A DNA stretch of 64,000 nt from positions 62,001-126,000 of the forward strand of contig DYMU01000009.1 of NCBI GenBank assembly GCA_020721445.1, in the 5' to 3' direction. Origin of the DNA: Gemmobacter nectariphilus. GTDB lineage: Bacteria > Pseudomonadota > Alphaproteobacteria > Rhodobacterales > Rhodobacteraceae. How positions within the stretch are numbered: position 1 is the stretch's first letter; every line of letters starts with the position of its first letter. Below the pieces are notes generated by a model. It worked only from the letters and a program-made list of their open reading frames with translations. It was not told where the DNA came from and ran no database searches. The translations under genes were made by a program, and so were the position numbers. Below are positions 250 to 19,049 of the stretch, piece after piece.

Positions 250-1014
250 ATGGACGGAGGGCCCGGCTTGGGGCATGACAACTGGAAACTGATCCGCGAC
301 GGGATCGCGGCCGAGATTGCCGAAGGCGCTTTGCCCCCCGGGTCACAATTGCCCACCGAATCGGTGCTGTGCGAACGCTTTGCCACGGGGCGCCATTCGG
401 TGCGCCGCGCCGTGCAGGCCCTGGCGGTCGAGGGCAAGCTGCGCGTCGTGCAGGGGCGCGGCACCTTTGTCGAAAGCGCGCCGATGATCCGCTATGCCAT
501 CGGGCGGCGCACAAGGTTCCGGCAGAACCTGCTGGATCAGGGCCTGACCCCGGCGGGCGAGCAGTTGCGGGCGGAAATCATGGCCGCGCCCGAGCGTGTG
601 GCGTCGGCCTTTGGGCTGGTGCCGGGCGCGCCGGTGCACCGGCTGTTGCGGCGTGCTCTGGCCGACGGGCTGCCGATCAACCTCAGCCTGTCCTGGCATC
701 CGGCCGAGCTGTTTCCCGATCTGGCGGCGCAACGGCTGGCCGGGGTGTCGGTGACCCAGGTCTATGCGGCGGCCGGGATCACCGATTATTTCCGCAAGCG
801 AACCGTGATCTTTGCCCGCCGCCCCGAGGGCGACGAGGCGAAATTGCTGCAACAGCACCCCGATCAGCCGGTGATGGTGCTGGTTAAGACCGATGTCGCC
901 GCCGATGGCCGTGGCATTGGCCATTCCGAGGCGGTGTGGTCGGCCAACCGGGTGCAGTTCACCATCGACAGTCTGGAAGACGCACCGGATACCGCAGGGG
1001 ACCGCGATGTTTGA
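250..1014 (+). CDS. phnF: PhnF, GntR/HutC-family regulator of phosphonate genes
   Basis: The 254-residue protein has an N-terminal winged helix-turn-helix (about residues 8-75; PPGSQLPTESVLCERF and VVQGRGTFV are typical GntR segments) followed by a UTRA effector-binding domain (about 90-240), the HutC-subfamily layout. PhnF proteins repress phosphonate operons and probably sense a phosphorus metabolite. The ATG at 250 has a weak ribosome-binding site; an in-frame TTG at 268 behind GGAGGG is a plausible alternative start. The reading frame is open further upstream, but that stretch does not look like a GntR protein. The 3' end overlaps phnG by 8 bp, making it the first gene of the C-P-lyase-type operon. 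Confidence 0.9.
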   Translation: MDGGPGLGHDNWKLIRDGIAAEIAEGALPPGSQLPTESVLCERFATGRHSVRRAVQALAVEGKLRVVQGRGTFVESAPMIRYAIGRRTRFRQNLLDQGLTPAGEQLRAEIMAAPERVASAFGLVPGAPVHRLLRRALADGLPINLSLSWHPAELFPDLAAQRLAGVSVTQVYAAAGITDYFRKRTVIFARRPEGDEAKLLQQHPDQPVMVLVKTDVAADGRGIGHSEAVWSANRVQFTIDSLEDAPDTAGDRDV

Positions 1015-1435
1015 CCGGGGCACAAGCGACGACGCGTCGACCCACCTGTCGGTGCTGGCACGGGCAGAGCCCGGGCGGATCAAGGCGATGGCCGAGCAGG
1101 TTCTGCCGGCGCTGGGGGCGGTCGAGGTTCTGATCTCGCGCACCGGGCTGGTGATGCTGCCCCTGCGCGACACGGTCAAGGGCGTCGATTTCTTTCTGGG
1201 CGAGGTGCTGGTGGCCGAGGCGCACATTCGGGCCGGCGGGGCCGAAGGCTATGGCATGGTCACCGGGCGCGATCTGGAACAGGCGATGGCGATGGCGGTG
1301 CTGGACGCCGCGCGCAGCCTGCGCTTGCCGGGGGTGCCGGAGTTTGTCCGCCAAGAGGCCGCGGCGCAGGCCGCAAGCGACGATGCCCGGCTGCGCCGGA
1401 TCGAGGCCACCCGTGTCGAGATGGAGACATTCTGA
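1007..1435 (+). CDS. phnG: PhnG, C-P lyase core complex subunit
   Basis: The 142-residue protein matches PhnG in size and order, with the recognisable segment GYGMVTGRDLEQAMAMAVLD in its second half. In E. coli PhnG forms the PhnG2H2I2J2 core and, with PhnH, PhnI and PhnL, is needed to couple the phosphonate to the ribose C1 of ATP with loss of adenine. It acts in the cytoplasm. The ATG at 1007 lies inside the end of phnF, and the stop shares one base with the phnH start (TGATG), indicating translational coupling. No unusual residues are apparent. Confidence 0.93.
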   Translation: MFDRGTSDDASTHLSVLARAEPGRIKAMAEQVLPALGAVEVLISRTGLVMLPLRDTVKGVDFFLGEVLVAEAHIRAGGAEGYGMVTGRDLEQAMAMAVLDAARSLRLPGVPEFVRQEAAAQAASDDARLRRIEATRVEMETF

Positions 1436-1968
1436 TGGCTGACCCGGTTCCGACGCAGGACGATCTGCGCGACAACGCGGCGTTTGAGGCACTGATGTGG
1501 GCGATGGCGCGGCCCGGCAGCCTGCACGATCTGCCGGGTGGTATCGCCGATCTGGTGCTGGCGCTGGTGGACCGTGAATGTCGGGTGCTGGTGGACGACC
1601 CTTCCCTGGCGCAGGTGGTGGCCGCGACCGGCGCGGCGCTGGTGGCGGCCGAAGGTGCCGATCACGCCTTTCTGACACGGGCCGAGGGTGCGTTGGCGGT
1701 GTTGGCCGCCTTGCCCGCCGGATCCCCGCTTTACCCCGATCAGGGCGCGACGCTGGTGCTGCCCGCGACGCTTGGGCAGGGCCAAAGGCTGCGGCTGACC
1801 GGGCCGGGGATCGAGGGCGCGACCGAGGTGCATATCAGTGGCCTGCCCGATGGGTTCATCGACCTGCGGGCGGCGCGCTGCCGCTACCCGGAAGGGGTGG
1901 ACATGGTGTTTGTTGACGTTTCTCGGATCATGGCCTTGCCACGGTCCACCACGGTTGAGGGGATATAA
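1435..1968 (+). CDS. phnH: PhnH, C-P lyase core complex subunit
   Basis: The 177-residue protein has the PhnH pattern: an N-terminal FEALMWAMARPGSLHDLP segment and a C-terminal RYPEGVDMVFVD segment. PhnH is a fold relative of PLP enzymes without a cofactor and is a structural subunit of the cytoplasmic PhnGHIJ core, required with PhnG and PhnI for phosphonate-ribose coupling. It is slightly shorter than the E. coli protein (194 residues). Both junctions are one-base overlaps (TGATG with phnG, TAATG with phnI), so stoichiometric co-translation is likely. Confidence 0.93.
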   Translation: MADPVPTQDDLRDNAAFEALMWAMARPGSLHDLPGGIADLVLALVDRECRVLVDDPSLAQVVAATGAALVAAEGADHAFLTRAEGALAVLAALPAGSPLYPDQGATLVLPATLGQGQRLRLTGPGIEGATEVHISGLPDGFIDLRAARCRYPEGVDMVFVDVSRIMALPRSTTVEGI

Positions 1969-3026
1969 TGGCCTATGTCGCAACCCGGGGCGGTGAACGC
2001 GCCATCGAACAGGCCGAACGGCTGTATCGCGAACAGTTGGGCACCATTGACGCGGCACGGGTGCAGGGCTTGCGCGACGCGCTGCCGTGGCTGATTGACC
2101 GGGTGATGGGCGAGGCCTCGCTTTACGACGCCGATCTGGCGGCGCTGGCGCTGGCGCAGGCGGGGGGCGATCTGTACGAGGCGGTGCTGCTCTTGCGCGC
2201 CTGGCGCACCACGCAACCGCGCATCGCCATTGCCGCCCCGGTGTTGCAGGAAGACCTGTTCACGCATCGCCGGATTTCGGCGGCGTTCAAGGACATTCCG
2301 GGCGGGCAGATCCTTGGCCCGACGCTGGATTACGCGCACCGTCTGCTGGCGACCGATGTGCTGGGCGGGGCAGATTTCGTGCCGGTTCCGGTGACGCCGG
2401 CGCCGCAGGCCGCGCCCGCACAGCAGCCCAGCCTTGCCGCCTGGCAAAAGGCGATGGGTCTGGTGGCCGACCCGCCGCGCGCAGAGGTGGCCACCGACGA
2501 CATCCCTGATGTGACGCGCGAGCCGCTGTTGTTTCCCGCCGCCCGCGCCCACAGCCTGCAATCGCTGGCCCGCGCCGATACCGGGGGGGTGCTAGCCTTG
2601 GGCTATGCCGCGATGCGCGGCTATGGCAACGCCCACCCCACGGTCAACGAATTGCGTCTGGCAGAGGCCGAGGTGATGGTGCGCCATCCGTCCGGCGTTT
2701 CGTTTTCGGCGGGCCGGGTGAAGGTGTCGCAGGCCGAGGTTACCTCCAAGGGCAAATCCGGCCAGTTGGAACTGGGGTTTTGCGCCACCTTTGGCTGGAA
2801 CGAGGTCAAGGTGATTGCCGGGGCCACACTGGATTTGAACGCGGGCGGCGCGGAAAAGGGGTCGGCGGTCGAGGAAGAGTTCGTGCTGTATCACACCGAA
2901 CCCGTCGAATCGTCAGGCTTTTGCATCCACTTCAAGCTGCCGCATTACGTGACCTTCCAATCGGCTTTGGATGCGATGCGCGGGGCCGCCGTCGCGGACC
3001 CTGCCAAAGAAGAGGTGCCGGCATGA
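1968..3026 (+). CDS. phnI: PhnI, nucleosidase-type subunit of C-P lyase core
   Basis: The 352-residue protein is homologous to E. coli PhnI along its length (opening GGERAIEQAE, then RRISAAFKDIPGGQILGP, then EEFVLYHTEPVESSGF). PhnI carries the nucleosidase activity that displaces adenine so that phosphonate joins ribose C1. H321 and H326 in HFKLPHYV correspond to the two histidines that bind Zn at the PhnI-PhnJ interface in the E. coli structure, so this half of the active site looks intact. The gene overlaps phnJ by 4 bp (ATGA). Confidence 0.94.
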   Translation: MAYVATRGGERAIEQAERLYREQLGTIDAARVQGLRDALPWLIDRVMGEASLYDADLAALALAQAGGDLYEAVLLLRAWRTTQPRIAIAAPVLQEDLFTHRRISAAFKDIPGGQILGPTLDYAHRLLATDVLGGADFVPVPVTPAPQAAPAQQPSLAAWQKAMGLVADPPRAEVATDDIPDVTREPLLFPAARAHSLQSLARADTGGVLALGYAAMRGYGNAHPTVNELRLAEAEVMVRHPSGVSFSAGRVKVSQAEVTSKGKSGQLELGFCATFGWNEVKVIAGATLDLNAGGAEKGSAVEEEFVLYHTEPVESSGFCIHFKLPHYVTFQSALDAMRGAAVADPAKEEVPA

Positions 3027-3937
3027 GCCTTTCCAACCTGACCCGGCCCTGGGCGGCGTTTTCCTATGGTTTTCTGGACCCGTCGGCCAAGCGCGAGATC
3101 CGGCGCAAGATGATCAAGGCCATCGCGGTGCCGGGCTGCCAGATTCCCTATGCCAGCCGCGAGGTGCCGATTGCGCGCGGCTGGGGCACCGGCGGCTTGC
3201 AGGTCACGCTGACGCTGATCAAGCCGGCTTCGGTGGTCAAGGTGATCGACCAAGGCGCCGATGACAGCGTCAACGCCGCCTCGATCCGGCGGTTCTTGTC
3301 GCGGGTGTCCGGCGCGGGCGAAACCTGGGATACGCTGGCGGCCACGATTGTGCAAAGCCGCCACCGCATTCCCGAAGAACGCCTGCGCGACGATCAGGTG
3401 CTGGTGTTGCAGGTGCCCAACCCCGAACCTTTGCGCCCGGTGCAGCCGAACATGAGCATTGCGCGCCAGATGCACGCCGATGCCGATTATGGCCGGCTGT
3501 GGCTGGTCTTGTATGAACAGATGGTCCGTTCGGGCCGCATCATGCAGGGTGCGGCCTACCCGGCGCTGGTGAACGGGCGGCATGTGATGACGCCATCGCC
3601 GATCCCGCGTTGGGACGTGCCAAAGCTGAACATGGCGCGGCATCTGACATTCCTGTCGGCGGGGCGCGAAAAGCGGCTGTATGCGGTGCCGCCATTCACC
3701 CGGGTGGAACCCCTGGTGTTTTCCGACGTGCCCTACAAGGTCGAAGACCACACCCGGCTGACCTGCCACCGTTCCGGCCTGACCGGCGTGTTCATGAACG
3801 AAATCCCGCAGGCGGCGGGCGGGTCGGTGTTTGAAGCCTCTGACAGCCATCTGGGCATCAAGGCGATCCGCCGGGCCGAAGGTGATGCCGCCGAAATCGG
3901 CCCCTTGTGGTATCAGAACGGGGAGTTCCGGGGATGA
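3023..3937 (+). CDS. phnJ: PhnJ-like C-P lyase subunit with degenerate Fe-S cysteine motif
   Basis: The 304-residue protein aligns end to end with PhnJ: GWGTGGLQVT, VIDQGADDSVNAASIRRF, PSPIPRWDVPKL and AGREKRLYAVPPFTRVE are all present, and G38 matches the conserved Gly32 of E. coli PhnJ. PhnJ normally cleaves the C-P bond of ribose-1-phosphonate 5-phosphate by radical SAM chemistry using a CX2CX21C cluster plus a further cysteine. Here only C248 remains: the later positions read S251, A272 and G278 (CHRSG and FEASDSHLG). The C-terminus extends about 20 residues beyond that motif. The frame is clean, so this is not a simple sequencing frameshift. Homology is certain; whether it still cleaves C-P bonds is doubtful. 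Confidence 0.9.
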   Translation: MSLSNLTRPWAAFSYGFLDPSAKREIRRKMIKAIAVPGCQIPYASREVPIARGWGTGGLQVTLTLIKPASVVKVIDQGADDSVNAASIRRFLSRVSGAGETWDTLAATIVQSRHRIPEERLRDDQVLVLQVPNPEPLRPVQPNMSIARQMHADADYGRLWLVLYEQMVRSGRIMQGAAYPALVNGRHVMTPSPIPRWDVPKLNMARHLTFLSAGREKRLYAVPPFTRVEPLVFSDVPYKVEDHTRLTCHRSGLTGVFMNEIPQAAGGSVFEASDSHLGIKAIRRAEGDAAEIGPLWYQNGEFRG

Positions 3938-4734
3938 GCGTGCTGGACCGGCTGGCCCCGGAGTTGATCACGGGCGCGCCCTTGCTGGTGATGCAGGGCA
4001 TCGCCAAGCGCTATGGCCCGGTGGTGGCACTTGAAGATGTGGCCGCTACCGTCTGGCCGGGCGAGGTTTTGGGGATTGTCGGAGAAAGCGGGTCTGGCAA
4101 ATCCACCCTGCTGCGGATGATGAACCTTGAAGACACGCCCGATACCGGGACCTATACCCTTGCGCTGCCCGAGGTGGCGGGCAACCTGTTTGACCTTGAC
4201 CGTTTTGCCCGCCGCCAGTTGTGCGCGCGGCGGATTGGCATCGTCTACCAGAACCCGCATCAGGGCCTTTTGATGGGCCATTCGTCATCGGGCAACGTGG
4301 CCGAGCGGTTGCTGGTGGCCGGAGAGCGGCGCTTTGCCACCCTGCGCGCCCGCGCCCGCGAGGCGCTGGATGTGTCGGAATTTCCGCTGAACCGGATGGA
4401 TGACCCGCCGCGCCTGTTGTCGGGCGGCATGCAGCAGCGGGTGCAACTGGCCAAGGCGATTGCGTTGGAACCGGCGCTGTTGTTGCTGGATGAACCCACG
4501 ACCGGGCTGGATGTCAGCGTGCAGGCATTGGTGCTGGATACGCTGAAACGGCTGCAACGGGACCGGGCGATCACCATGGTGATCGTCAGCCATGACCTTG
4601 GCGTGATCCGCACCATGGCCGACCGGGTGATGGTGATGCGCCGCGGCCGGGTGGTGGAAGAAGGGCTGGTCGATCAGGTGTTCCAAGACCCGCAGCACCC
4701 CTACACGCAGGAGCTGGTTCATGCCAAACTCTGA
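3934..4734 (+). CDS. phnK: PhnK, ABC-type ATPase of the C-P lyase complex
   Basis: The 266-residue ABC ATPase has Walker [12 protein letters not shown], signature LSGGMQQRVQLAKA, Walker B LLLLDEPTTGLD and switch histidine in IVSHDLG. It resembles oligopeptide-type nucleotide-binding domains, as PhnK does, but has no permease partner; in E. coli PhnK docks on PhnJ in the soluble complex. The ATG at 3934 overlaps phnJ by 4 bp; starts further upstream would run deep into phnJ. It overlaps phnL by 14 bp. Confidence 0.93.
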   Translation: MSVLDRLAPELITGAPLLVMQGIAKRYGPVVALEDVAATVWPGEVLGIVGESGSGKSTLLRMMNLEDTPDTGTYTLALPEVAGNLFDLDRFARRQLCARRIGIVYQNPHQGLLMGHSSSGNVAERLLVAGERRFATLRARAREALDVSEFPLNRMDDPPRLLSGGMQQRVQLAKAIALEPALLLLDEPTTGLDVSVQALVLDTLKRLQRDRAITMVIVSHDLGVIRTMADRVMVMRRGRVVEEGLVDQVFQDPQHPYTQELVHAKL

Positions 4735-5458
4735 ACGCGGCGCGATGGTCCCGGGGGCGGTGGTCTTGCAGGTCGAAGGTCTGGCAAAAAGCTTTCAGAT
4801 GCACCATCTGGGGCAGAACCTGCACGCCTTTGACCATGTCAGCTTTACCCTGCGGGCGGGTGAGTTTCTGTTGCTGAAAGGCCCGAACGGGGTGGGCAAG
4901 TCCACGCTGCTGCGCACGATCTATCGCAGCTATCTGCCGCAGGCGGGGCATGTCTGGTTCAGCCATGGCGCGGGGCGCACCGATCTTGCCCACGCGGCGG
5001 ATGTGGATATCGCCCTGCTGCGGCGGCGCGAGATCGGCTTTGTGACGCAATTCCTGATCGCGCGGCCGCGGGTGGCCGCCGAAGACATCGTGGCCGAGCC
5101 ATTGCGCAAGGCAGGGGTGGCGGCGGAAGATGCCTTGGAACAGGCGCGGCACTGGCTGGCGACCTTTGGCGTCAAGCGTGACCTGTGGCGCGCCTATCCG
5201 ACCAGTTTTTCGGGCGGCGAGCAGCAGAAGGTGAACCTTGCCCGCGCGCTGATCCTGCCGCCACGGCTGCTGTTGTTGGACGAACCCACCGCGTCTTTGG
5301 ACGTGGGCGCGCGGGCGGCGCTGGTGGCGCGGCTGGCCGACCTGAAGGCGGCGGGCGTGGCGATGATTGGGGTGTTTCATCACCCCGGCGATGTGGCGGC
5401 ACTGGTGGACCGTGATCTTATGCTGATGGCGAAAGAGGTGGATGATGTGGCTGTCTGA
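4721..5458 (+). CDS. phnL: PhnL, ABC-type ATPase of the C-P lyase pathway
   Basis: The 245-residue ATPase has Walker A GPNGVGKSTLLR, signature FSGGEQQKVNLARAL and Walker B LLLLDEPTASLD. PhnL is needed in vivo and, with PhnG, H and I, for the phosphonate-ribose coupling reaction; it shares an ABC fold with PhnK but is not a transporter. An AGGAG motif eight bases before the ATG at 4721 supports this start; M9 (4745) is an alternative beyond the phnK stop. The 3' end overlaps phnM by 17 bp. Confidence 0.93.
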   Translation: MPNSERGAMVPGAVVLQVEGLAKSFQMHHLGQNLHAFDHVSFTLRAGEFLLLKGPNGVGKSTLLRTIYRSYLPQAGHVWFSHGAGRTDLAHAADVDIALLRRREIGFVTQFLIARPRVAAEDIVAEPLRKAGVAAEDALEQARHWLATFGVKRDLWRAYPTSFSGGEQQKVNLARALILPPRLLLLDEPTASLDVGARAALVARLADLKAAGVAMIGVFHHPGDVAALVDRDLMLMAKEVDDVAV

Positions 5459-6614
5459 TTTTCAGGTGGTTCTGGCCGATCGCGTGCTGTCGCGCGGATC
5501 GGTGCGGGTGCAAGATGGCCGGATTGCCGAGGTCAGCGACCAGATCGTCGCCGGGGCCAGCCTGTGGGGCGAAGGGTTGCTGCTGATGCCCGGTTTTGTC
5601 GACATGCACGGCGACATGATCGAGCGCGAGGTGGAGCCGCGCCCCAACGTGCGGATGCCGATGGAGTTGGGCCTGCGCGATCTGGACCGCAGGCTGGCGG
5701 TGGCGGGGGTGACCACGGGCTATGCCGCGGTCAGCTTTCACCCCGGCAGCGCCTATGGCCACATGCGCAGCTATGACCATACCAAGGCGATGCTGCGCGG
5801 TCTGAAAGACATGCGCGACCAGTTGAAGGTCGATCACCGGGTGCATGCAAGGTTTGAGGTGACCTTCCCCGATGCGCTTGCGGTGGTCGAGGAGTTGATC
5901 CGCGAAGGCACCGTCGATCTGGTCAGCCTGACCGACCACACGCCGGGGCAGGGGCAATACCGCGATCTGGAACGCCATGTGCAATCGGTGGCCAAGAACA
6001 AGAAGCTGAGCATGGAGGAAGCCCGCGCCGAGGTCGAGCGCCGGATCGCGCATAAGAAGGCCGAAAGCGGCGATCTGATGGCCACCATCGCCGCCATTAC
6101 CGCGCTGTGCCACGCGCATGGCGTGCGGCTGGCCAGCCATGACGATGACACGGTGGAAAAGGTGGCGCTGATGCAAAGCCTTGGTGCCGATATCAGCGAG
6201 TTTCCGGTGACCGCCGAGGCGGCAGCGGCGGCGCGGCGCTGCGGTCTTGCCACGGCGATGGGTGCACCCAACGCGCTGCGCGGCCAAAGCTATTCCGGCA
6301 ACCTGTCGGCGCGCGATGCGCATGCGGCGGGGCTTTTGGACATTCTGGCCTCGGATTATCACCCTTCGGCCATTCTTCCGGCGGTGCTTGAACTGGCCAA
6401 GGCCGATATAAACGGGCTGGCGGGGGCGACGCGGTTGGCCACGCTGAACCCGGCGCGGGCCTTGGGCCTGACTGACCGGGGCGAGATTGCGGTGGGGATG
6501 CGGGCCGATCTGGTGGTGGCCGACAAGGCCGGGATCGGCCATGTCCGCGCCACGCTGCGAGCCGGGCAGAAGATCTTTTCCGACGGATCGGTGGGCCTGC
6601 CGGTAGCGGCGTAA
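5442..6614 (+). CDS. phnM: PhnM, ribosyl triphosphonate pyrophosphohydrolase (first copy)
   Basis: The 390-residue amidohydrolase-superfamily protein carries PhnM landmarks: FVDMHGDMIER near residue 50, TDHTPGQGQYRD, LASHDDDT, MGAPNALRGQSYSGN and ILASDYHPSAIL. PhnM removes pyrophosphate from 5-triphosphoribosyl-1-phosphonate to give the 5-phosphate that PhnJ acts on. It starts with ATGATG behind a GAGGTGG motif, inside the end of phnL, and is the last gene of the first transcription unit. No phnN or phnP follows, unlike in E. coli. Confidence 0.93.
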   Translation: MMWLSDFQVVLADRVLSRGSVRVQDGRIAEVSDQIVAGASLWGEGLLLMPGFVDMHGDMIEREVEPRPNVRMPMELGLRDLDRRLAVAGVTTGYAAVSFHPGSAYGHMRSYDHTKAMLRGLKDMRDQLKVDHRVHARFEVTFPDALAVVEELIREGTVDLVSLTDHTPGQGQYRDLERHVQSVAKNKKLSMEEARAEVERRIAHKKAESGDLMATIAAITALCHAHGVRLASHDDDTVEKVALMQSLGADISEFPVTAEAAAAARRCGLATAMGAPNALRGQSYSGNLSARDAHAAGLLDILASDYHPSAILPAVLELAKADINGLAGATRLATLNPARALGLTDRGEIAVGMRADLVVADKAGIGHVRATLRAGQKIFSDGSVGLPVAA

Positions 6615-6627
6615 CCGCGGCGGCGGT

Positions 6628-7395
6628 CTAGACCCGTCGCACCCATTGCGCTTCGGTCTGCCAGTGCAGAGTCAGGCGGCCTTCGGGCAGATTGTCTTGG
6701 CACAGGGCAGACAGGTCGTGCAGCACCCGGTCCAGCCCGATGCGGCGCACCACATCCCATGTGGTGGACCGGGTCAGCCACAGGTCAATCAGCCCGCGGC
6801 AATCGGTGTCGCTGTGCCATGGCCACAGCGCGGTTTGCGGATCGGCAAAGCCGCGTTGCGCGCCCAGATAGGCCGCGCCCGGCAGTTTGCGGTCGTTGCG
6901 GCGCAGGTAGTCTTCGCCTTGGGTGCTGTGCTGCGCGACATAGGCATCGAAGGCCGCCAGAACCGGATGCGACAGCCGCTGGTGGCGGATGATCGCCAGC
7001 ACCCCGCCCGGAGCCAGGATCCGCGCCATCTCGGCCATGGTGCGGTCGGGGTGCAGCCAGTGCCAGGCGGTGCAGATCGTGGCCAGCGCGGCAAAGCCCG
7101 CGGGCAGGGGCAGGGCCTCGGCGCGGGCGCCAAGGATCATCAGGCCGGACGCGCCTTCGAACCGCCGCGTCAGCACCCGGCGCATGTCTCGGCCCGGTTC
7201 GGCGGCGGCAATAACCCAGTCCGGCCCCAAGGCCTGCCGCAGTGACTGGGTCGAGGTGCCGGGGCCTGCGCCCACATCCACCGCGCGGCGCAACGCTGTG
7301 GTGATGCTGGCGGCGATGTCCTGAAACGCCGCCACCGGATAGCCGGGCCGAAAGGCGGCATAGGCCTCGGCCAGCCCGTCAAAGCGTTCGGTCAT
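6628..7395 (-). CDS. Class I SAM-dependent methyltransferase
   Basis: The 255-residue protein has a Rossmann-type methyltransferase domain: motif I AVDVGAGPGTSTQSLRQ, an acidic AAAEPGRDM turn, and the LPAGFAALATICTAWHWL segment typical of ubiE/Methyltransf_11-type enzymes. The substrate is not known. It is convergent with phnM (13 bp gap) and lies downstream of the second phnM-like gene on the same strand, so it could be co-transcribed with it. The start at 7395 gives the common opening MTERF; an ATG at 7404 is possible. Confidence 0.75.
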   Translation of the reverse strand: MTERFDGLAEAYAAFRPGYPVAAFQDIAASITTALRRAVDVGAGPGTSTQSLRQALGPDWVIAAAEPGRDMRRVLTRRFEGASGLMILGARAEALPLPAGFAALATICTAWHWLHPDRTMAEMARILAPGGVLAIIRHQRLSHPVLAAFDAYVAQHSTQGEDYLRRNDRKLPGAAYLGAQRGFADPQTALWPWHSDTDCRGLIDLWLTRSTTWDVVRRIGLDRVLHDLSALCQDNLPEGRLTLHWQTEAQWVRRV

Positions 7396-7413
7396 GTCCC
7401 CCATCGGACGATA

Positions 7414-7447
7414 CCCCCCATCTGCCTTAGCCCCCCATCTGCCTTAG
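7414..7447. repeat. Perfect 2 x 17 bp tandem duplication
   Basis: The 17-mer CCCCCCATCTGCCTTAG occurs twice head to tail at 7414-7430 and 7431-7447. The second copy contains the TAA stop of the phnM-like gene (7444-7446, - strand), so the duplication probably copied the 3' end of that gene. Confidence 0.85.
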
Positions 7448-8688
7448 CCCATCGCTGTGGCGCTGTAGGCGGGTTTGCCGGCCACCCATGTGGCGCGGGT
7501 GGCGGGGGCCGCGCCATCGGGCCAGTCGATCAGCACCAGATCGGCGCGCAGGCCCGCGGCAATCCGGCCCCGGTCGGCCAGGTTCAGCGCCTGCGCCGGG
7601 TTTGCGGCAACCCGCGTCCACAATGCGGGCAGCGGCGCCACGCCATCGGCGCGCATCCGTGCCATCGCCCCCAGCATCGCGGGATAATAGTAATCCGACG
7701 CAAGGATATCGCACAGGCCTTCGCGGATCATCTCGGCCGCACCCGGGCTGCCCAGATGGCTGCCGCCGCGTGCCGCATTGGGGGCACCGAACACGATCCA
7801 GTCGCCGGCATCGCGCGCCGCGCGGGCGGTGGGGTGGTTCATCGGAAACTCGGAAATCCGGCTGCCCATGGTGCGATAGATCAGCCGGGTTTCGGGCTGG
7901 CTGTCATCATGCGACAGCATCGGCACCCCGGCGGCCCGGCCCAAGGCGGCGACCGCTTCGATCTTGGCCAGCGCCTCGGGTCTGCGGGCCCAGACATGCA
8001 ACGCAAGGGCCATCATCTGGGCGGCGGGCACCTTGGCGCGCAATGCGCGGTCCGCCACCCGATGCGCGAGTTCCGGATGGCCGGGGTCGATGACGGGATA
8101 GGCCGGGTCATGGTCAAACGGGCGGTCTTGCAGCGGTGTGCCGGGGTCGCGCATCAGCATGCTGGTATGGTCGTTGAAGGCGATCGACGGCGCAAGCGGC
8201 CCGGCCAGAACCGCCTCGATCAGCGGCAGGGCCTCAAAGCAGAACGTCTCCCAGCGCAGTTGCAGGCGGTTTTCCACCGTCAGGCGCGGGGCAAGGCGGG
8301 CCAGCGTGTGAAACACTTCCCAGCCGGTCTCGACCGAGCGCAGGCCCGGCTCCCAGCTCAGCGTCAGGGCATGATAGGCGGTGGCGATGCCGTTGGCGGC
8401 AAGCTGGCGGTCGGTTTCCAGCAGCGCCACCTCGTGGGGCAGCATCACGCCGGGGCGCGGCATCAACTGGCGTTCAAACGCATCGCCGTGGATGTCGATC
8501 ATTGCCGGGGCCAGCAACAGGCCGCGAGCGTTGATCCGGGTGGCCCCGTCGGCCGGCACATCCAGCCCGGTGATCACGCCATTCTCGATCCGCAAGGCGG
8601 CGGTGTCGATCCGGTCGTCAAACAGGATCTGCGCGCCCTCGATCAGCTGGGCTTCGGGGGTTTCGGGGCGGCGAAAGGCGGCGTTCAT
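7444..8688 (-). CDS. PhnM-like amidohydrolase (second copy)
   Basis: This 414-residue protein is a PhnM-family paralogue: MIDIHGDAFERQLMPRPGV, MLSHDDSQPE, FGAPNAARGGSHLGSP and ILASDYYYPAML match the family, and NPAQALNLADRG is near-universal in PhnM. It differs from the first copy where that has TDHTPGQGQ: here the segment is FNDHTSMLMRDPGTPLQD, so substrate preference may differ. It is transcribed divergently from phnC, 321 bp away, across a region with two PhnF-type palindromes, which suggests co-regulation. It could duplicate PhnM or act on another triphosphoribosyl compound. Confidence 0.85.
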   Translation of the reverse strand: MNAAFRRPETPEAQLIEGAQILFDDRIDTAALRIENGVITGLDVPADGATRINARGLLLAPAMIDIHGDAFERQLMPRPGVMLPHEVALLETDRQLAANGIATAYHALTLSWEPGLRSVETGWEVFHTLARLAPRLTVENRLQLRWETFCFEALPLIEAVLAGPLAPSIAFNDHTSMLMRDPGTPLQDRPFDHDPAYPVIDPGHPELAHRVADRALRAKVPAAQMMALALHVWARRPEALAKIEAVAALGRAAGVPMLSHDDSQPETRLIYRTMGSRISEFPMNHPTARAARDAGDWIVFGAPNAARGGSHLGSPGAAEMIREGLCDILASDYYYPAMLGAMARMRADGVAPLPALWTRVAANPAQALNLADRGRIAAGLRADLVLIDWPDGAAPATRATWVAGKPAYSATAMG

Positions 8689-9009: not shown

Positions 9010-9816
9010 ATGGAACAGCACACCCTTTCCCTTAAAGATCTCACGCGCAGCTTTGGTGACACCAAGGCGGTGGATCGCGTGTCACTTGATATTCCCCCCG
9101 GCCAGTTCGTCGGGGTGATCGGTCGGTCGGGTGCGGGAAAATCCACCCTGCTGCGGCTGGTCAACCGGCTGATCGACCCGACGCAGGGCCAGGTCACCTA
9201 TGGCCCGCGCGATATCACGGCGCTGAAAGGCCGGGCTTTGCGCGAATGGCGGCGCGATTGCGCGATGATCTTTCAGCAGTTCAATCTGGTCGAGCGGCTG
9301 GATGTTTTGTCAAACGTGCTGGTCGGGCGTCTGGCGGATCACGGGTTTTTCTCGTCGATGGCCATGCAGTTTTCCGATGCCGAGCGGGCCGAGGCCCTGC
9401 GCGCGCTGGAACGCCTCGATCTGCTGCCGCAAGCCTTGCAAAAGGCCGGCACCCTGTCGGGCGGCCTGCAGCAGCGTGTGGCGATTGCCCGCGCGCTGGT
9501 GCAGCGCCCGCGCATCATGCTGGCGGATGAACCCATCGCCAGCCTTGATCCCGGCAATGCCACACGGGTGATGGAGGCGTTGAAGACGATCAATGCCGAA
9601 GACGGGCTGACCGTGCTGGTCAACCTGCACACGCTGGATACTGCCCGCGCCTATTGCCACCGCATCATCGCGATGCGCGCGGGCCGGGTTTATTTCGATG
9701 GCGTCCCGCGCCAGCTGACCGATGATGTCGTGCGCGACATCTATGGCAGCGAAGGACTGCAAGAGTTCAACGAAGCCGTCACCTCGACCGCCGTGCGGAT
9801 CAAGGTTCCGGCATAA
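9010..9816 (+). CDS. phnC: PhnC, phosphonate ABC transporter ATPase
   Basis: The 268-residue ATPase has Walker A GRSGAGKSTLLR, signature LSGGLQQRVAIARAL, Walker B IMLADEPIASLD and switch His in VNLHTLDTA, the last being typical of PhnC rather than of other ABC importers. It energises uptake with PhnD and the two PhnE permeases. The ATG at 9010 follows a G-rich ribosome-binding stretch and fits the family N-terminus. It is the first gene of a transcription unit that runs through to the phosphodiesterase at 15633. Confidence 0.94.
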   Translation: MEQHTLSLKDLTRSFGDTKAVDRVSLDIPPGQFVGVIGRSGAGKSTLLRLVNRLIDPTQGQVTYGPRDITALKGRALREWRRDCAMIFQQFNLVERLDVLSNVLVGRLADHGFFSSMAMQFSDAERAEALRALERLDLLPQALQKAGTLSGGLQQRVAIARALVQRPRIMLADEPIASLDPGNATRVMEALKTINAEDGLTVLVNLHTLDTARAYCHRIIAMRAGRVYFDGVPRQLTDDVVRDIYGSEGLQEFNEAVTSTAVRIKVPA

Positions 9817-9841: not shown

Positions 9842-10744
9842 ATGCGTCTGCTTGCAACCTCTGCCCTTATTGTGCTGTGCGCCGTTCCGGCCATGGCCCA
9901 GGACTGGAAGACCGATTACAAGGTCGTCCGCTTCGGCGTTTTGTCGGGCGAGAACGAAAAGGACCGCGTCGCGCGTTATACGCCGTTCGAGCAGTATCTG
10001 GAAAAGACGCTGGGCGTTGATGTCGAGATCTTCACTGCCGGCAACTATGACGGTGTGGTGCAGGCGCTGGCCGCCAACCAGATCGAGTTTGCCTTCCTTG
10101 GCTCGTCGGCCTACGCCGCCGCCTATACCGCAACCGATGGCGGGGTCGTTCCGTTGCTGACCAGCCAGCAAGACGATGGTTCGACCGGCTATTTCTCGAT
10201 CATCGCCGTGCGTTGCGATGCGGGCTACAAGTCGGTGGATGACCTTAAGGGCAAGGTTCTGGCCTTTGCCGACCCGGACAGCACCTCGGGCTACAACGTG
10301 CCTTATTACAATCTGGTCCAGCAGGGTTACAAACCCGAAGAGTTCTTCTCGGCCACCCCGTTCTCGGGCAGCCACGAAGCCGGTGTTCAGGGTGTTGTGA
10401 ACGGCCAGTTTGACGCCGCCGCCACCTATATCAACAACGAAAAGAACGGCATCCCGCAGCGGATGGAAACCAAGGGCATGATCAAGGAAGGCGAAGTCTG
10501 CTGGATCTGGACATCGCCCGAGATCACCTCTGGCCCGTTCACCGCGCGCGCCAACATTCCGCAAGGTTTGATGGACGAAATGAAGGCCGCCGTGATGGCC
10601 ACCCCGACGGCCGCACCCGAGGTTTACAAGGAAATGACCGGCGGCGAAGACTCCACCGCGATGGGCTATGTCGAGGTTGATCACGCCCGCTACCAGTGGA
10701 TCATCGACATGCGCGACTGGTTCAAGGCACAGCGCAAGTCCTGA
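9842..10744 (+). CDS. phnD: PhnD, phosphonate-binding periplasmic protein
   Basis: The 300-residue precursor has a 19-residue signal peptide ending AMA before QDW, then a PhnD-family periplasmic binding domain (VRFGVLSGENEKDRVARYTP, EFAFLGSSAYAAAYT, FADPDSTSGYNVPYY, FSGSHEAGVQGVVNG). It delivers the ligand to PhnE1E2C. Ligand range cannot be judged from the sequence; PhnD proteins bind phosphonates and sometimes phosphite or phosphate esters. A hairpin followed by a T-run separates it from phnE, which would allow more binding protein than permease. Confidence 0.93.
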   Translation: MRLLATSALIVLCAVPAMAQDWKTDYKVVRFGVLSGENEKDRVARYTPFEQYLEKTLGVDVEIFTAGNYDGVVQALAANQIEFAFLGSSAYAAAYTATDGGVVPLLTSQQDDGSTGYFSIIAVRCDAGYKSVDDLKGKVLAFADPDSTSGYNVPYYNLVQQGYKPEEFFSATPFSGSHEAGVQGVVNGQFDAAATYINNEKNGIPQRMETKGMIKEGEVCWIWTSPEITSGPFTARANIPQGLMDEMKAAVMATPTAAPEVYKEMTGGEDSTAMGYVEVDHARYQWIIDMRDWFKAQRKS

Positions 10745-10802: not shown

Positions 10803-11705
10803 ATGGCCTATACCACTGCCGATTTCGATCGCGACTTTGCCCGGCATCGTCGCAAGTCCCGACTGACCTTCTGGGCGGTCATGGTCATTCTGGCCTTGCT
10901 GACCTGGGCCACGGCGCAGATGTCGGGGTTTTTCCGCGTCACGCAACTGACCCTTGCCGATGGCAGCCGGGCAGAGGCCTGGGTGGTGGCGGCCGGTCTG
11001 CCGCGTTTGGGCGAATATCTGGAAAAGACGCTGCCGGTCTTGCGCGCCGAAAGTCTGGCGGCTGATTTCGGCCAGTGGTTCTGGCGCTGGAAGATCTGGG
11101 GCTGGCTGCTGTTGGAAACCGTGTTGATCGGGTTTCTGGCGACGGTGTTTGGCGTGGCGGGCGGGTTGGTGCTGTCGTTTGCCGCCGCCCGAAACCTGTC
11201 GCCGTCACGCCCGGTGCTGTGGATCACGCGGCGCATTCTGGAAGTGATGCGCACCGTGCCCGACATCGTCTTTGCGCTGATCTTCGTGTTCTGCTTTGGC
11301 GTCGGGCCGATGGCAGGGGTGCTGGCGATTGCGATGCACTCGACCGGCGCCTTGGGCAAACTTTATTCCGAAGCCAATGAAAACATCGACATGCGCCCGG
11401 TGGACGGCATCAAGGCGGCGGGCGGCAGTTGGGCCGACCAGATGCGCTGGGGGGCCTTGCCGCAGGTCATTCCCAACATCATCAGCTACACGCTGCTGCG
11501 GTTTGAAATCAACGTGCGGTCGTCGTCGATCATCGGCTATGTCGGTGCGGGCGGCTTGGGGCAGGAGCTGCGCACCGCCATTTCCTTGCAGGAATACACC
11601 GACCTGTCGGCGCTGTTCCTGATCATTTTCGTCACCGTGATCGTGATCGACTCGGTATCGGAAAGGTTGCGTCACCGGGTGATCGGGATGGAGAGAGCAG
11701 CATGA
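10803..11705 (+). CDS. phnE: PhnE1, phosphonate ABC transporter permease
   Basis: The 300-residue integral membrane protein has an N-terminal membrane segment (about residues 20-40), a periplasmic stretch, then the permease core with several hydrophobic helices. The EAA loop region is seen in DGIKAAGGSWADQMRWGALPQ, which contacts PhnC. GYVGAGGLGQEL is a typical PhnE motif. The ATG at 10803 follows GGGGACC; the gene overlaps the second permease by 4 bp (ATGA), so the two probably form a heterodimeric channel. Confidence 0.92.
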   Translation: MAYTTADFDRDFARHRRKSRLTFWAVMVILALLTWATAQMSGFFRVTQLTLADGSRAEAWVVAAGLPRLGEYLEKTLPVLRAESLAADFGQWFWRWKIWGWLLLETVLIGFLATVFGVAGGLVLSFAAARNLSPSRPVLWITRRILEVMRTVPDIVFALIFVFCFGVGPMAGVLAIAMHSTGALGKLYSEANENIDMRPVDGIKAAGGSWADQMRWGALPQVIPNIISYTLLRFEINVRSSSIIGYVGAGGLGQELRTAISLQEYTDLSALFLIIFVTVIVIDSVSERLRHRVIGMERAA

Positions 11706-12559
11706 GCGTTTCGCAAACCGATCTGACCCGCTACAAGACCGCTCTTCCGCTGGCGTTTCGTGCGCCCGCGCAGGTGCGCCTGCGGCGTGCCCTGCTGTGG
11801 ACCGGGTTTTTCCTGCTGATCGCATGGTGCCTGTTCGTGTTCAACTTCTCGCCCGTTCGCATCTGGAACGGTCTGGGGCGTCCTGGCAACGTGCTGGGCT
11901 TCATGTTCCCGCCGAAAATCTGGACCGACTGGGACGAGGTTGCCGAGATCGCCAAGGGTCTGGGCGAGACCCTGTCGATGGCATTTCTGGGCACACTGCT
12001 GGGGGCGGTCTTTGCCTTTCCGCTGTCGTTTCTGGGGGCCAAGAACATCAACCGATTGTCTTTCCTGCGCTTTGGTGTGCGGCGCGGATTTGATATCATC
12101 CGCGCGCTGGAAACGCTGATCCTGGCGCTGGTGTTCATCCGCGCCTTCGGCCTTGCGCCGTTGCCGGGGGTGCTGGCGATTGCGGTGGGCGAGGTGGGGG
12201 TGCTGGCCAAGCTTTATGCCGAGGCGATCGAGAACACTTCGAACAAGCCGATTGACGGGATTGTCGCCAGCGGCGGCAGCCGGTTTCAGGCCATCCGCAT
12301 CGGGTTGATGCCGCAGGTCTGGCCGGTGCTGTTGTCGATCACGCTGTACAACTTTGAATCCAACGTCCGCTCGGGCACCATTCTGGGCATCGTCGGTGCC
12401 GGCGGCATCGGGTTTTTGCTGGCCGACCGGATCGGCGCTTACCGCTGGGACGAGGCATGGTCGATCATCTTTCTGATCATCGCCATGGTCTATGTGATCG
12501 ACGCGCTGTCCGCGCGCATCCGGGCAAGGTTTATTGGCACATGGGAAGGGGCGCGCTGA
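11702..12559 (+). CDS. phnE: PhnE2, second phosphonate ABC transporter permease
   Basis: The 285-residue permease is a paralogue of the preceding one: one N-terminal helix (about 33-52), then the core helices, an EAA loop in DGIVASGGSRFQAIRIGLMPQ and GIVGAGGIGFLL. Two adjacent phnE genes are common outside the enterobacteria. It shares ATGA with phnE1 and one base with the following transglutaminase-like gene (TGATG), so translation runs on into the accessory genes. Confidence 0.92.
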   Translation: MSVSQTDLTRYKTALPLAFRAPAQVRLRRALLWTGFFLLIAWCLFVFNFSPVRIWNGLGRPGNVLGFMFPPKIWTDWDEVAEIAKGLGETLSMAFLGTLLGAVFAFPLSFLGAKNINRLSFLRFGVRRGFDIIRALETLILALVFIRAFGLAPLPGVLAIAVGEVGVLAKLYAEAIENTSNKPIDGIVASGGSRFQAIRIGLMPQVWPVLLSITLYNFESNVRSGTILGIVGAGGIGFLLADRIGAYRWDEAWSIIFLIIAMVYVIDALSARIRARFIGTWEGAR

Positions 12560-13380
12560 TGGCTGTTGGCGTCGAAATCACGGTGCCGGGCACCGAAGGG
12601 GTGATCTTTGCACCCGTGGGCGTGTCGTCGCCGCAGGCGCAAAGCCTGGGCTGCACGGTGCGCGGCGGTTCGGTGCGCACACTGGTCGAGCCGACATCGG
12701 GGCAAGAGGTCGTGCTGGTCACGCCAGATGCGCCCGAGGTGACCTTTCGCTACGCTTTCGCCGATCATCCCGGCCGGTATCCCGAGGCGATGTTTCACCC
12801 TGCGCCGTCGCGCCATACGCTTGCGGCGGCGGCGCTGGAGGAGGAGGCCCGCGCGGTTGCCGGCACCGGCGATGACCTGACCCGCGCCATCCGTCTTGCG
12901 CGCCATGTGGCCGGGCGGTTTGACTATGGCCACCCCGAGCAGAAATTCACCGATGGCCATGACCATGTCCCGCATCTGGCCTGTGGTCTGACCGAAGGCT
13001 CTTGCATTGATATCCACACCTATCTGCTGGCGTCATTGCGCGCGGTCGGGATCGAGGCGGGCTACGCGGTGGGCTATTTCTTCCCTGACGTGGGGGAGTG
13101 CACCAGCGGCCATTGCTGGGCTGTTACCCGTATCGGTGGCCAGACGCAGGAATGGGATATCTCGCATTTCCTGCAAATGGGGCGGCGAGACGCGGGCCCT
13201 GCGCTGAACCCAAAGGGCGGTTTTCGGGTGCCGGTCGGCCATTCGATGGGCCTGAGCCTGGCCGAAGTCGGCTTTGAAGACCTGAAGTTGCTGGTGGAAC
13301 CGATGGTGATGCGCGACGGCCAGCCGGTGCGGTTTGAAACCAGGACGATCACGCTTAGCCGACCGGACTCTGCCGTATGA
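12559..13380 (+). CDS. Transglutaminase-like cysteine protease-fold protein in the phn operon
   Basis: The 273-residue protein shows the transglutaminase-like Cys-His-Asp triad: C149 in [16 protein letters not shown]185 in [10 protein letters not shown] and D200 in EWDISHFL. An N-terminal beta-rich segment (about 1-95) precedes the catalytic domain. There is no signal peptide, so it is probably cytoplasmic. Such proteins hydrolyse or transfer amide/isopeptide groups. It overlaps phnE2 by one base and the acyltransferase by 4 bp, so it is an integral member of the operon. A role in removing an amide or peptide group from an imported phosphonate or phospho-compound is an inference; the substrate is unknown. 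Confidence 0.75.
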
Positions 13381-13985
13381 AACTGCTGACCGAAGCCCCG
13401 ACCATCCACGAAACCGCCAAGGTGGTGGATTGCACCCTTGGCAAATGGACCGAGATTTATGCCGATGTCACGATGAAGGAGGTCACGTTTGGCGACTATT
13501 CCTACATCGTGCGGGGTGGCAACGTGGTCTGGTCCACCATCGGCAAGTTCTGTTCCATTGCCGAAGGCGCGCGGATCAACCCCGGCAACCACGCCACATG
13601 CCGCGCGAGCCAGCACCATTTCACCTATCGCGCGGCGCAATATGGGCTGGGCGAAGATGACGAAGCCTTCTTCCAGTGGCGCCGCGATCATTGGGTGACC
13701 ATCGGCCATGATGTCTGGATCGGCCATGGTGTCACGGTGCTGGCAGGCGTTACCATTGGCACCGGGGCGGTGATCGGCGCCGGGGCCGTGGTGTCCAAGG
13801 ATGTGGCCCCGTATGAGATCGTCGGCGGTGTTCCCGCGCGGCACCTGAAATGGCGCGTTACGCCGCCGCAGGCCGAGGCGTTGCAAGCCATCGCCTGGTG
13901 GGATTGGGACCACGCACGGCTGAAAGCCGCGCTGCCCGATATCCGCGCGCTGCCGATCGACGCCTTCATCGAGACATACCGCTAA
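13377..13985 (+). CDS. Hexapeptide-repeat acyltransferase associated with phosphonate genes
   Basis: The 202-residue protein has left-handed beta-helix hexapeptide repeats (about 15-150; [47 protein letters not shown]) and a C-terminal helical tail, as in xenobiotic/chloramphenicol-type O-acetyltransferases. It fits the family of DapD/GlmU-related transferases repeatedly found in phn operons. It probably acetylates an amino- or hydroxy-phosphonate, by analogy to PhnO, which belongs to a different fold. It overlaps the preceding gene by 4 bp. Confidence 0.82.
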
Positions 13986-14017
13986 CCCCCCCCCGATTAT
14001 TCCCGGAGTGCCCCCCC

Positions 14018-14833
14018 ATGTCCTTGCCCATCCTTGGCGCCGCCCTGACCCTTGCCGACCTTCCCGGTCATGCTGATTGGCTGCGCGAAGCGCCGCGCGA
14101 TCTAGAACTGCAATCCTTTGTCGACGCCGAGGTGCTGAACGGCGACTGGCAGCCCCGCGCCGACGAGGCCAAGCGCCTGCTGGACGGTCACACCGGCCGC
14201 TTGGGGATTCACGGGCCGTTCTGGGGCTGGACGATTTCCAGCTATGATCCGGACGTGCGGGCCATTGTGCGCAAGCGGATGATGCAGGCGCTGGATGTTT
14301 GCGCGGCCATTGGCGGCACGCATGTGGTGATCCATTCGCCGTTCACCACCTGGGGCTATAACCACAAGGGGCTGTATCCGTCGGATGCCGAGCGCATGAT
14401 CGCCGCCACCCAGGATACCATGATGGCCGCACTTGAGCGGGCCGAGGACATGGGCGTGACCTTCATGCTGGAAAACATCGAAGACATCGACCCGCGCGAC
14501 CGTGCCGATCTGTGCGAAGCTTTGGGTTGGCGGGCCTTGGCGCTGTCGGTGGATACCGGGCACGCGCATTACGCCCATGGGTCCACCGGCGCGCCGCCGG
14601 TCGATTTCTACATCCGCGCGGCAGGCAACCGTCTGGGGCATGTCCACCTGCAAGACGCCGATGGCTATGCCGACCGGCACTGGCAGTTGGGGCAGGGCAC
14701 CATCCTGTGGCCGTCGGTGTTTGCCGCCCTGTCGCAGATCACGTCAAACCCGCGCCTGATCATCGAATTGCGCGACAAGGCCGGGGTGATCCCGTCGGCG
14801 CGCTATCTTGCGGGTCTGGGGCTGGCGCAATGA
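14018..14833 (+). CDS. TIM-barrel sugar phosphate isomerase/epimerase-like protein
   Basis: The 271-residue protein looks like an AP-endonuclease-2/xylose isomerase-like TIM barrel: IHGPFWG, HVVIHSPF, MLENIED, SVDTGHAHYAHG and GHVHLQD supply the His/Glu/Asp metal-ligand pattern of that family. The reaction could be isomerisation, epimerisation or a metal-dependent hydrolysis. The ATG at 14018 is preceded by GGAG twelve bases upstream and gives the opening MSLPILGAAL. It shares ATGA with the phosphodiesterase gene, so the two products may act on one sugar-phosphate intermediate (inference). Confidence 0.78.
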   Translation: MSLPILGAALTLADLPGHADWLREAPRDLELQSFVDAEVLNGDWQPRADEAKRLLDGHTGRLGIHGPFWGWTISSYDPDVRAIVRKRMMQALDVCAAIGGTHVVIHSPFTTWGYNHKGLYPSDAERMIAATQDTMMAALERAEDMGVTFMLENIEDIDPRDRADLCEALGWRALALSVDTGHAHYAHGSTGAPPVDFYIRAAGNRLGHVHLQDADGYADRHWQLGQGTILWPSVFAALSQITSNPRLIIELRDKAGVIPSARYLAGLGLAQ

Positions 14834-15633
14834 CCGGGCTGAAGTTCATCGTCCTGTCGGACCTGCATCTTGGCGCGCCCGGTGTGCCGGTCAACGGGCT
14901 GGACACCGGCGCGCGGCTGGCGCAGGCGGTGGCGGTGATCAACCGTGACCACGCCAATGCCGATTTCGTGCTGGTGGCGGGCGATCTGGCCGATCAGGGC
15001 GAGGCCGCAGCCTACCACGCGCTGCGCGACCTGCTGGCACCGCTGAAGATGCCGGTTCACATCACCCTTGGCAATCACGATGACCGTGACACCTTTCTGT
15101 CGGTCTGGGGGGCGGACCGTGACCACCCGCAGGGCCGGGTGTCCAAGGTGATTGACGGCGGCGGCCACCGGGTGATCTTGCTGGATACCTCGGAGCCGGG
15201 GTTGGTTGGCGGGCGGCTGTGCCAAGGGCGGCAGGCCTGGCTTGCCGACCGTCTGGACGAGGCCGAGGATCGCCCGGTGATCGTGGTCATGCACCATCCT
15301 GCCAATCGGCTGTCGCTGCCGGTGGATGACATCGCGCTGGAAGACGGCGCGCGGTTTGCCGCGATTCTGGCCACCCACCCCGAGGTGCGGATGGTGATCG
15401 CGGGCCATGTGCATCTGCCGACGGCGGGCGTCTGGTGCGGTTTGCCGATGGTCACGATGGCAGGCAGCCATTATTCGGTCAGCCCGCATGTGCCCGGGGT
15501 GCCAGGCGACCAGCGCCAGTTGGAAGGGCCTGCACAGTTCGCGGTGGTTCTGGCCGCCGATGACGGGGTGACGGTGCATTTTCACGACTACCTTGACCGC
15601 CACCTGACCATGGCGCGCGGCCTGTTCCGCTGA
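14830..15633 (+). CDS. Calcineurin-fold cyclic/glycero-phosphodiesterase (CpdA/GpdQ-like)
   Basis: The 267-residue protein has the full binuclear metallophosphoesterase motif set: LSDLHLG (D10, H12), VLVAGDLADQG, TLGNHDD, VMHHPAN and IAGHVHLP. This places it with class III cyclic nucleotide phosphodiesterases and GpdQ, which cleave glycerophosphodiesters. It has no signal peptide, so it is probably cytoplasmic. As the last gene before the ugp transporter it may release glycerol-3-phosphate or phosphate from imported diesters, or open a cyclic ribose phosphate in place of the absent PhnP (both inferences). Confidence 0.82.
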   Translation: MTGLKFIVLSDLHLGAPGVPVNGLDTGARLAQAVAVINRDHANADFVLVAGDLADQGEAAAYHALRDLLAPLKMPVHITLGNHDDRDTFLSVWGADRDHPQGRVSKVIDGGGHRVILLDTSEPGLVGGRLCQGRQAWLADRLDEAEDRPVIVVMHHPANRLSLPVDDIALEDGARFAAILATHPEVRMVIAGHVHLPTAGVWCGLPMVTMAGSHYSVSPHVPGVPGDQRQLEGPAQFAVVLAADDGVTVHFHDYLDRHLTMARGLFR

Positions 15634-15649
15634 CGCCTGCTGCCAGATC

Positions 15650-15693
15650 ACCAAAGCAACCGGGATGACCAAGGTCATCGCGGTTGTTTTGGT
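15650..15693. terminator. Long inverted repeat between the phn accessory genes and ugpB
   Basis: A 44-base imperfect inverted repeat can fold into a stem of about 20 pairs: ACCAAAGCAACCG pairs with CGGTTGTTTTGGT (one G-U pair) and, after one mismatch, GATGACC with GGTCATC around a minimal loop. It begins 17 bp after the phosphodiesterase stop. No T-run follows, so it may act as a Rho-independent-like stop, an mRNA 3'-stabilising stem or an attenuator. An AT-rich stretch at about 15705-15745 probably holds the ugpB promoter. Confidence 0.6.
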
Positions 15694-15824
15694 GCGCGCC
15701 ATTCAACCAATTGAAATTGTTACAAACATTTCTGATTACCTTTGCTGGCCTGACACCAAGGCCCGTCATCACGCCGTAATGCCGCCTTTGGGTGCGGCTG
15801 CCATCCAACTCGGAGACAGCGACG

Positions 15825-17150: not shown

Positions 17151-17215
17151 GCACCCTCGGGCGTGGCGGCGATGCGTCGCCGCGCCCACCCTTTCGTGCA
17201 GACCCCCCGGAGGCA

Positions 17216-18100: not shown

Positions 18101-18109
18101 GGGCAAGCC

Positions 18110-19039: not shown

Positions 19040-19049
19040 GGGGGCAGCC

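Follow-up and report, generated by a model that had tools for sequence, protein, structure and literature searches.

The window analysed here, a stretch of 64,000 nucleotides from Gemmobacter nectariphilus (assembly GCA_020721445.1, contig DYMU01000009.1, positions 62,001 to 126,000), carries near its start an operon for carbon–phosphorus (C-P) lyase. Its phnJ gene encodes an intact PhnJ subunit that lacks three of the four cysteines found in canonical PhnJ proteins. A preliminary description, made from the DNA letters alone, had placed this loss at positions 3764 to 3856, and that span proves exact. The gene and its altered region are located as follows.

3023–3937, plus strand: phnJ, Cys-less form, an intact frame of 304 amino acids (PF06007, 379 bits)
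3764–3856, plus strand: former cluster region with C248, S251, A272 and G278 (first base of codon 248 at 3764, last base of codon 278 at 3856)

The window protein belongs to the PhnJ family, with a Pfam PF06007 match of 379 bits (curated cut-off 25) and an alignment to the sequence of the Escherichia coli PhnJ structure with an E value of 1.6e-80. The PhnJ fold is kept, including the C-terminal domain. This alignment equates G38 with Gly32, C248 with C241, S251 with C244, A272 with C266 and G278 with C272; the preliminary description had claimed the same equivalents in a frame that is intact and homologous throughout, and every one of these points is reproduced. Thus, the radical-site glycine is present, and C241 alone is retained from the cluster-cysteine set C241, C244 and C266. 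The position of Cys272, which we take to be the thiyl site proposed for the radical mechanism (Kamat, Raushel), is occupied by glycine.

The same pattern recurs in many other genomes. A census of 142 PhnJ sequences (141 unique sequences plus that of E. coli) comprises 104 with the same three cysteine losses, 38 with all four cysteines and none with a partial set. Glycine at position 32 and cysteine at position 241 are universal in the 142 proteins (C248 and G38 are kept in 104/104 variants), and the other three positions of the Cys-less proteins hold S or T; V, L, A, I or T; and G, A or M, respectively. All four cysteines are retained in PhnJ from Haloarcula and from Mesobacillus, the latter read after the census. 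Because independent genomes share the Cys-less PhnJ (for example, those of loci L070 and L071, 94% and 90% identical to the window protein), sequencing error is excluded, and the earlier doubt that the loss might be confined to one strain or reflect a sequencing slip can be set aside.

In a PhnJ tree of 75 rows, a single branch with support of 100/98 divides the 50 Cys-less rows from all others, and the same split is recovered at 98/92 when PhnJ from E. coli residue 236 onward is removed. A four-Cys group adjoins the Cys-less clade with modest support (91/82) on this unrooted tree, for which no root was inferred, and this placement fits a single cysteine loss. A PhnI tree of 81 rows, with groups assigned by identity to the window PhnI (at least 49%) rather than by the linked PhnJ, shows the same two-way split at 100/99. 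Ratios of nonsynonymous to synonymous substitution rates (dN/dS) of 0.017–0.107 indicate strong purifying selection on PhnJ, and the neighbouring genes are also under purifying selection. Apart from the lost cysteines, members of the clade keep the fold and almost every residue that is invariant in canonical PhnJ, and their PhnJ tail contains new invariant polar residues (E241, R250, N259, E271 and K280). A clade that shares the cysteine loss together with this gene set, which the preliminary description had named as the sign of a distinct system, therefore exists and has its own syntenic operon; the accompanying claim that the core genes are under selection, and not in simple decay, likewise holds. 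Assembly error and strain noise are ruled out by the census, the clade and the selection results. That a canonical copy is often present too might suggest a decaying duplicate, but the low dN/dS values, the occurrence in many species of two orders and in Thermus, and the intact synteny refute decay or artefact, leaving that explanation a probability near zero.

Members of the Cys-less clade come from Rhodobacterales, Rhizobiales including Devosia, and plasmids of Thermus thermophilus. In a sample of the window's family, PhnJ is found at E <= 1e-20 in 201/394 genomes, and close relatives of the window PhnJ (75–100% identity, at least 525 bits) are found in 24/394, the window's own genome included, with the next match at 294 bits. 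A phylum sample of 398 genomes, partly overlapping the family sample, contains five carriers, with a score gap from 588 to 370 bits. Phyla beyond Pseudomonadota were covered through plasmid records only; these records add Haematobacter, Nitratireductor, Mesorhizobium, Sinorhizobium, Rhizobium, Microvirga and Thermus thermophilus, and 8/8 plasmid loci with PhnJ read are Cys-less. Furthermore, when species genomes were scanned with the C-terminal motif [GH][FYV]FMNE[IL]P, which is new in the variant, 188 stretches matched and 158 of these were relatives. The best 80 of the 158, which constitute the scanned loci and genomes considered below, have alphaproteobacterial titles, one reading Proteobacteria only. 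Because the scan is tied to this motif, Cys-less forms with another motif, including those of Thermus, cannot appear in it.

The remaining core genes flank phnJ on the same strand.

250–1014, plus strand: phnF, GntR/UTRA regulator (TIGR02325, 185 bits, over cut-off)
1007–1435, plus strand: phnG (PF06754; TIGR03293 at 84.3 bits, slightly below the cut-off of 89)
1435–1968, plus strand: phnH (PF05845; TIGR03292 over cut-off)
1968–3026, plus strand: phnI, with H321 and H326 kept (PF05861, 353 bits; alignment to 4xb6_C)
3934–4734, plus strand: phnK, ATP-binding cassette (ABC) ATPase (best NCBIfam match TIGR02323, 223 bits, below the cut-off of 303; 7z15_I)
4721–5458, plus strand: phnL, ABC ATPase (best NCBIfam match TIGR02324, 233 bits, below the cut-off of 256)
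5442–6614, plus strand: phnM, triphosphate diphosphatase (NF011988, 538 bits; TIGR02318 over cut-off)

The C-P lyase gene set phnGHIJKLM is complete in the window and in most variant loci, and its synteny is intact across them. The exceptions are loci cut at contig ends and a few others with an unmatched gene (PhnM in L142, PhnG in L113).

The preliminary description had raised the question of a second, canonical phnJ elsewhere in the genome, and one is present. This gene (G000:C45, loci L002/L035) encodes a protein 46% identical to the window PhnJ, with the motif CDLC...CSDTDFC and all four cysteines, and lies in its own phn operon, which includes phnN and a TIGR03223-type gene. The window phnJ is a paralogue and not the strain's only C-P lyase gene. 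Such pairing is common: 69/80 genomes behind the scanned loci hold another PhnJ and 11/80 hold the Cys-less form only, where 'only' denotes no other PhnJ match at E <= 1e-20 in the assembly examined, and 5 of these 11 are metagenome-assembled genomes (MAGs). The variant-only isolates, from a first batch of 50 genomes, are Paenochrobactrum gallinarii and Devosia indica, D. marina, D. subaequoris, D. sediminis and D. elaeis; a second batch of 30 contains five variant-only genomes, all MAGs. In the family sample, a second PhnJ is present in 21/24 carriers, versus a PhnJ in 177/370 non-carriers (p 0.0002), an enrichment that a shared lifestyle may cause. The cysteine state of second copies was read where the locus was fetched and is elsewhere judged by score class (roughly 44–52% identity). 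On one contig of a family relative (L036, G315), about 10 kb separate one phn core set from another, and one of the two PhnJ proteins has a very long branch and keeps all four cysteines.

The genes that act after C-P lyase are distributed differently in the two forms. Among loci over 15 kb, phnN stands beside the core in 13/92 variant versus 13/13 canonical loci, and TIGR03223 does so in 7/92 versus 11/13; neighbour counts here and below take the best blastp matches against a reference set at any position in the locus, and the sets of 92 and 80 loci contain a few genomes twice. In variant-only loci, phnN is near the variant core in 7/11, compared with 3/69 of the others, and one genome (G074), in which no other phnJ was found, has a one-strand cluster of TIGR03223, phnF, phnGHIJKLM, phnCDEE, transferase and phnN. 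A PhnN match over cut-off, denoting the enzyme that forms phosphoribosyl pyrophosphate (PRPP), occurs in 8/8 variant-only genomes tested versus 1/20 PhnJ-less genomes of the window's family (p 2.9e-6), so the end product of the variant pathway is probably still a ribosyl phosphate. Of the candidates for acting on the cyclic phosphate, TIGR03223 is matched in 10/10 genomes examined, yet also in 10/20 PhnJ-less genomes, and PhnP is over cut-off in 0/10 genomes examined. In the simplest reading, the variant pathway delivers ribose 1,5-bisphosphate to PhnN, sharing the PhnN of the canonical operon where one is present.

These distributions also bear on a model in which the variant serves as a front end only, ribosylating phosphonates that the canonical complex handles poorly, with canonical PhnJ performing the cleavage in trans. 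The excess of second PhnJ proteins in family carriers, the additional PhnJ in 69 of the 80 further genomes, and a phnN mostly left to the other operon all agree with such a division of labour. However, no other PhnJ is found in 11/80 scanned assemblies and in 3/24 family assemblies, six of the 11 being isolates, and the G074 cluster unites a Cys-less phnJ with phnN and TIGR03223. We consider this model improbable.

With C244, C266 and C272 gone, the cluster and the proposed thiyl radical cannot form in the known way. Taken with the clade of cysteine loss, the selection on it and the second, four-Cys phnJ, this makes canonical 4Fe-4S/S-adenosylmethionine (SAM)/Cys272 chemistry very unlikely in the variant PhnJ, as judged from sequence. 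The PhnI metal site is preserved: H321 and H326 of the window protein, already described as kept, align with E. coli H328 and H333 (4xb6_C), and the pair is present in 101/101 variant and 36/36 other PhnI proteins. A cyclic ribosyl phosphate is modelled at this histidine zinc site in E. coli, according to the accessible part of PMC9947105. A cysteine of canonical PhnI (E. coli position 253) is found in 35/36 proteins, with Ser in Haloarcula, and is absent in 101/101 variants. Its loss along with the PhnJ cysteines hints at a link with the radical step, and Cys253 may be a component of the radical apparatus that has gone unrecognised.

A cluster might still be bound through other residues or subunits, so that an altered radical route survives. 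C248 and G38 are present in 104/104 variants, and new cysteines are common at PhnJ C39 (93/110), PhnH C49 (99/106) and PhnI C319 (104/107). But no new cysteine is universal in variant PhnJ or PhnI (C39 and C319 are both missing in Thermus), no new CX2C motif appears in the seven core subunits (PhnG being without canonical rows for comparison), and the cysteine at the proposed thiyl site (C272) has been lost. Re-housing of the cluster cysteines was rejected on the first two of these grounds, and we regard a retained cluster as highly improbable.

Downstream of the core, the window contains genes for uptake and for other functions.

6628–8688, minus strand: methyltransferase and second PhnM-like amidohydrolase, between phnM and phnC
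9010–9816, plus strand: phnC, transporter ATPase, in the same place in many variant loci
9842–10744, plus strand: phnD, binding protein (TIGR03431 over cut-off)
10803–11705, plus strand: phnE, permease, conserved in variant loci
11702–12559, plus strand: second phnE, permease, conserved in variant loci
13377–13985, plus strand: hexapeptide transferase of phn operons (TIGR03308 over cut-off)

After the second phnE, the region 12559–20878 holds genes for a transglutaminase-like protein, the hexapeptide transferase, a TIM barrel protein and an SpdA-like phosphoesterase, separated by overlaps or a 32-base gap, and further on ugpBAEC and a 2H-phosphodiesterase gene. Best matches of the PhnM2 type occur in 24/92 variant and 7/13 canonical loci.

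Genes of the PhnC/D/E type lie near 77/92 variant loci. PhnD residues 47, 93, 127–129 and 157 (E. coli numbering), to which roles have been assigned, are kept in nearly all proteins. Position 177 is D in 7/7 canonical-linked PhnD proteins, whereas variant-linked PhnD mostly carries N, T, S or R there, with D in 10/59 near relatives of the window PhnD; the replacement of this acid makes aminophosphonates less likely to be the main ligand. In some rhizobial operons, PhnCDE is swapped for a sugar-type ABC transporter with a PfkB kinase, or for an Opp/Nik-type transporter. Variant operons of Rhizobium (L137, 2273–6056, read in detail; similar in L069, L138–L141, L143 and L149) open with genes for a sugar-type ABC binding protein and a pair of permeases; no ATPase gene was seen in the stretch from these genes to phnG, and their PfkB kinase weakly matches a ribose-1-phosphate kinase model. 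Ugp and TIM barrel genes, which both the window and the surroundings of the Thermus operon contain, give no more than a hint of a link to glycerophosphodiester uptake.

An alternative is that C-P bonds are still cleaved without the cluster. The substrates might be activated phosphonates only, in which the departing carbon forms a stabilised carbanion, or the PhnI His site or the new PhnJ tail might harbour a different metal or an oxygen-dependent cofactor. The usual presence of a phosphonate-type binding protein and transporter, the retained PhnI histidines and the new invariant tail residues are all compatible with such cleavage, which we nevertheless judge unlikely: the sequences show no conserved new metal motif, the amine-suited acid at PhnD 177 is mostly replaced, and no linked cofactor gene turned up, although no by-name search for one was made. 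From the preliminary description, the probable loss of canonical radical chemistry is supported, whereas the transporter and neighbour hints give little backing to its suggestion of another phosphorus compound or cofactor.

The reading we prefer, with a probability of about 0.45, is that the window encodes a distinct, functional C-P lyase paralogue that has given up radical chemistry for a non-radical transesterification yielding a cyclic ribosyl phosphate (PRcP). The functions remaining in the variant are ribosyl transfer, pyrophosphate removal, the PhnI metal site and ABC-driven motion. PhnGHI(L) would still exchange the base of a nucleoside triphosphate for an imported phosphorus compound, PhnM would take off pyrophosphate, and PhnK/PhnL would open and close the core. 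Phosphorus would then be released without a thiyl radical, through attack of the ribose 2'-OH on phosphorus at the PhnI–PhnJ metal site and departure of a group whose release requires no radical, for instance the alcohol of an ester. The resulting PRcP could be converted to PRPP by a 2H-phosphodiesterase and PhnN, whether its own or that of the canonical operon, and the PhnJ C-terminal domain may play a structural role or guide the substrate. More specifically, and only tentatively, we propose an ATP-consuming, C-P-lyase-like machine that transfers organophosphorus compounds to ribose and frees their phosphorus by metal-assisted 2'-OH attack, with neither an Fe-S cluster nor SAM.

Several observations weigh against this preferred reading, in which we infer both the substrate and the chemistry. 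Phosphate esters are opened more cheaply by phosphatases, leaving the ATP cost unexplained, and Gly32 is retained despite having no radical role in the proposed chemistry. The PhnC/D/E-type genes also fit phosphonates, and the enrichment of Ugp (16/92 variant versus 0/13 canonical loci) and TIM barrel genes (21/92 versus 1/13) is not significant. TIGR03223 is weak evidence (8/8 variant-only versus 10/20 PhnJ-less genomes; p 0.025), and both comparisons with PhnJ-less genomes use 20 controls from the window's family, whereas 6/8 variant-only genomes are Devosia or Paenochrobactrum. Finally, the C-terminal part of PhnJ is less constrained than its body, with a dN/dS of 0.424 for one pair and one pair incomputable.

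Compared with the E. coli PhnGHIJ core and PhnK/PhnL (PDB 4xb6 and 7z15–7z19), the variant is without C244, C266 and C272 and without PhnI cysteine 253, has a different tail with invariant R250, N259, E271 and K280, and has phnN and TIGR03223 mostly away from the core. The four-Cys operon of the same genome resembles the window in its matched phnF, phnHIJKLM, phnCDE and hexapeptide transferase genes, and differs in its PhnJ and in the phnN and TIGR03223 genes alongside. The phn operon on plasmid pVV8 of Thermus thermophilus HB8, whose Cys-less protein is annotated in its record as C-P lyase PhnJ, belongs to the Cys-less clade; unlike the window, it has a LacI-type regulator, a PhnJ about 60% identical with a shorter tail, and no PhnI C319. 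PhnH is without the PhnJ C-terminal domain according to the accessible part of PMC9947105, whereas variant PhnJ keeps that domain. The same portion of that article places the cluster site about 30 Å from the glycine radical; the chemistry of C-P lyase has yet to be squared with its structure.

We found no description of the Cys-less PhnJ form in open PubMed Central (PMC) full text. The accessible part of PMC10132767 lists PhnI and PhnJ in a Roseobacter phosphorus-stress proteome and describes no variant there, and that of PMC10574752 mentions a glyphosate-specific C-P lyase variant, for which we found no tie to cysteine loss; the available portions of PMC9381506, PMC5649143, PMC5529391 and PMC6981132 provided background only. 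The Cys-less C-P lyase is widespread and conserved, and undescribed in the open PMC full text that was searched.

Public records label Cys-less proteins as C-P lyase PhnJ, and phnJ is taken as evidence of methane formation from methylphosphonate, for example through K06163, in the accessible part of PMC8774927. The same source reports a full methylphosphonate pathway in the Marivita MAG SBSPR1, whose single PhnJ match in the searched MAG, which may be incomplete, is Cys-less (L144, G849). Three residues suffice to tell Cys-less from canonical phnJ in ecological counts. A natural complex that keeps all but the cluster indicates that the ribosylation machinery is separable from the radical step. 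If the proposed chemistry is correct, the variant would represent a new route of organophosphorus catabolism, one that many Alphaproteobacteria have alongside canonical C-P lyase and some have without it.
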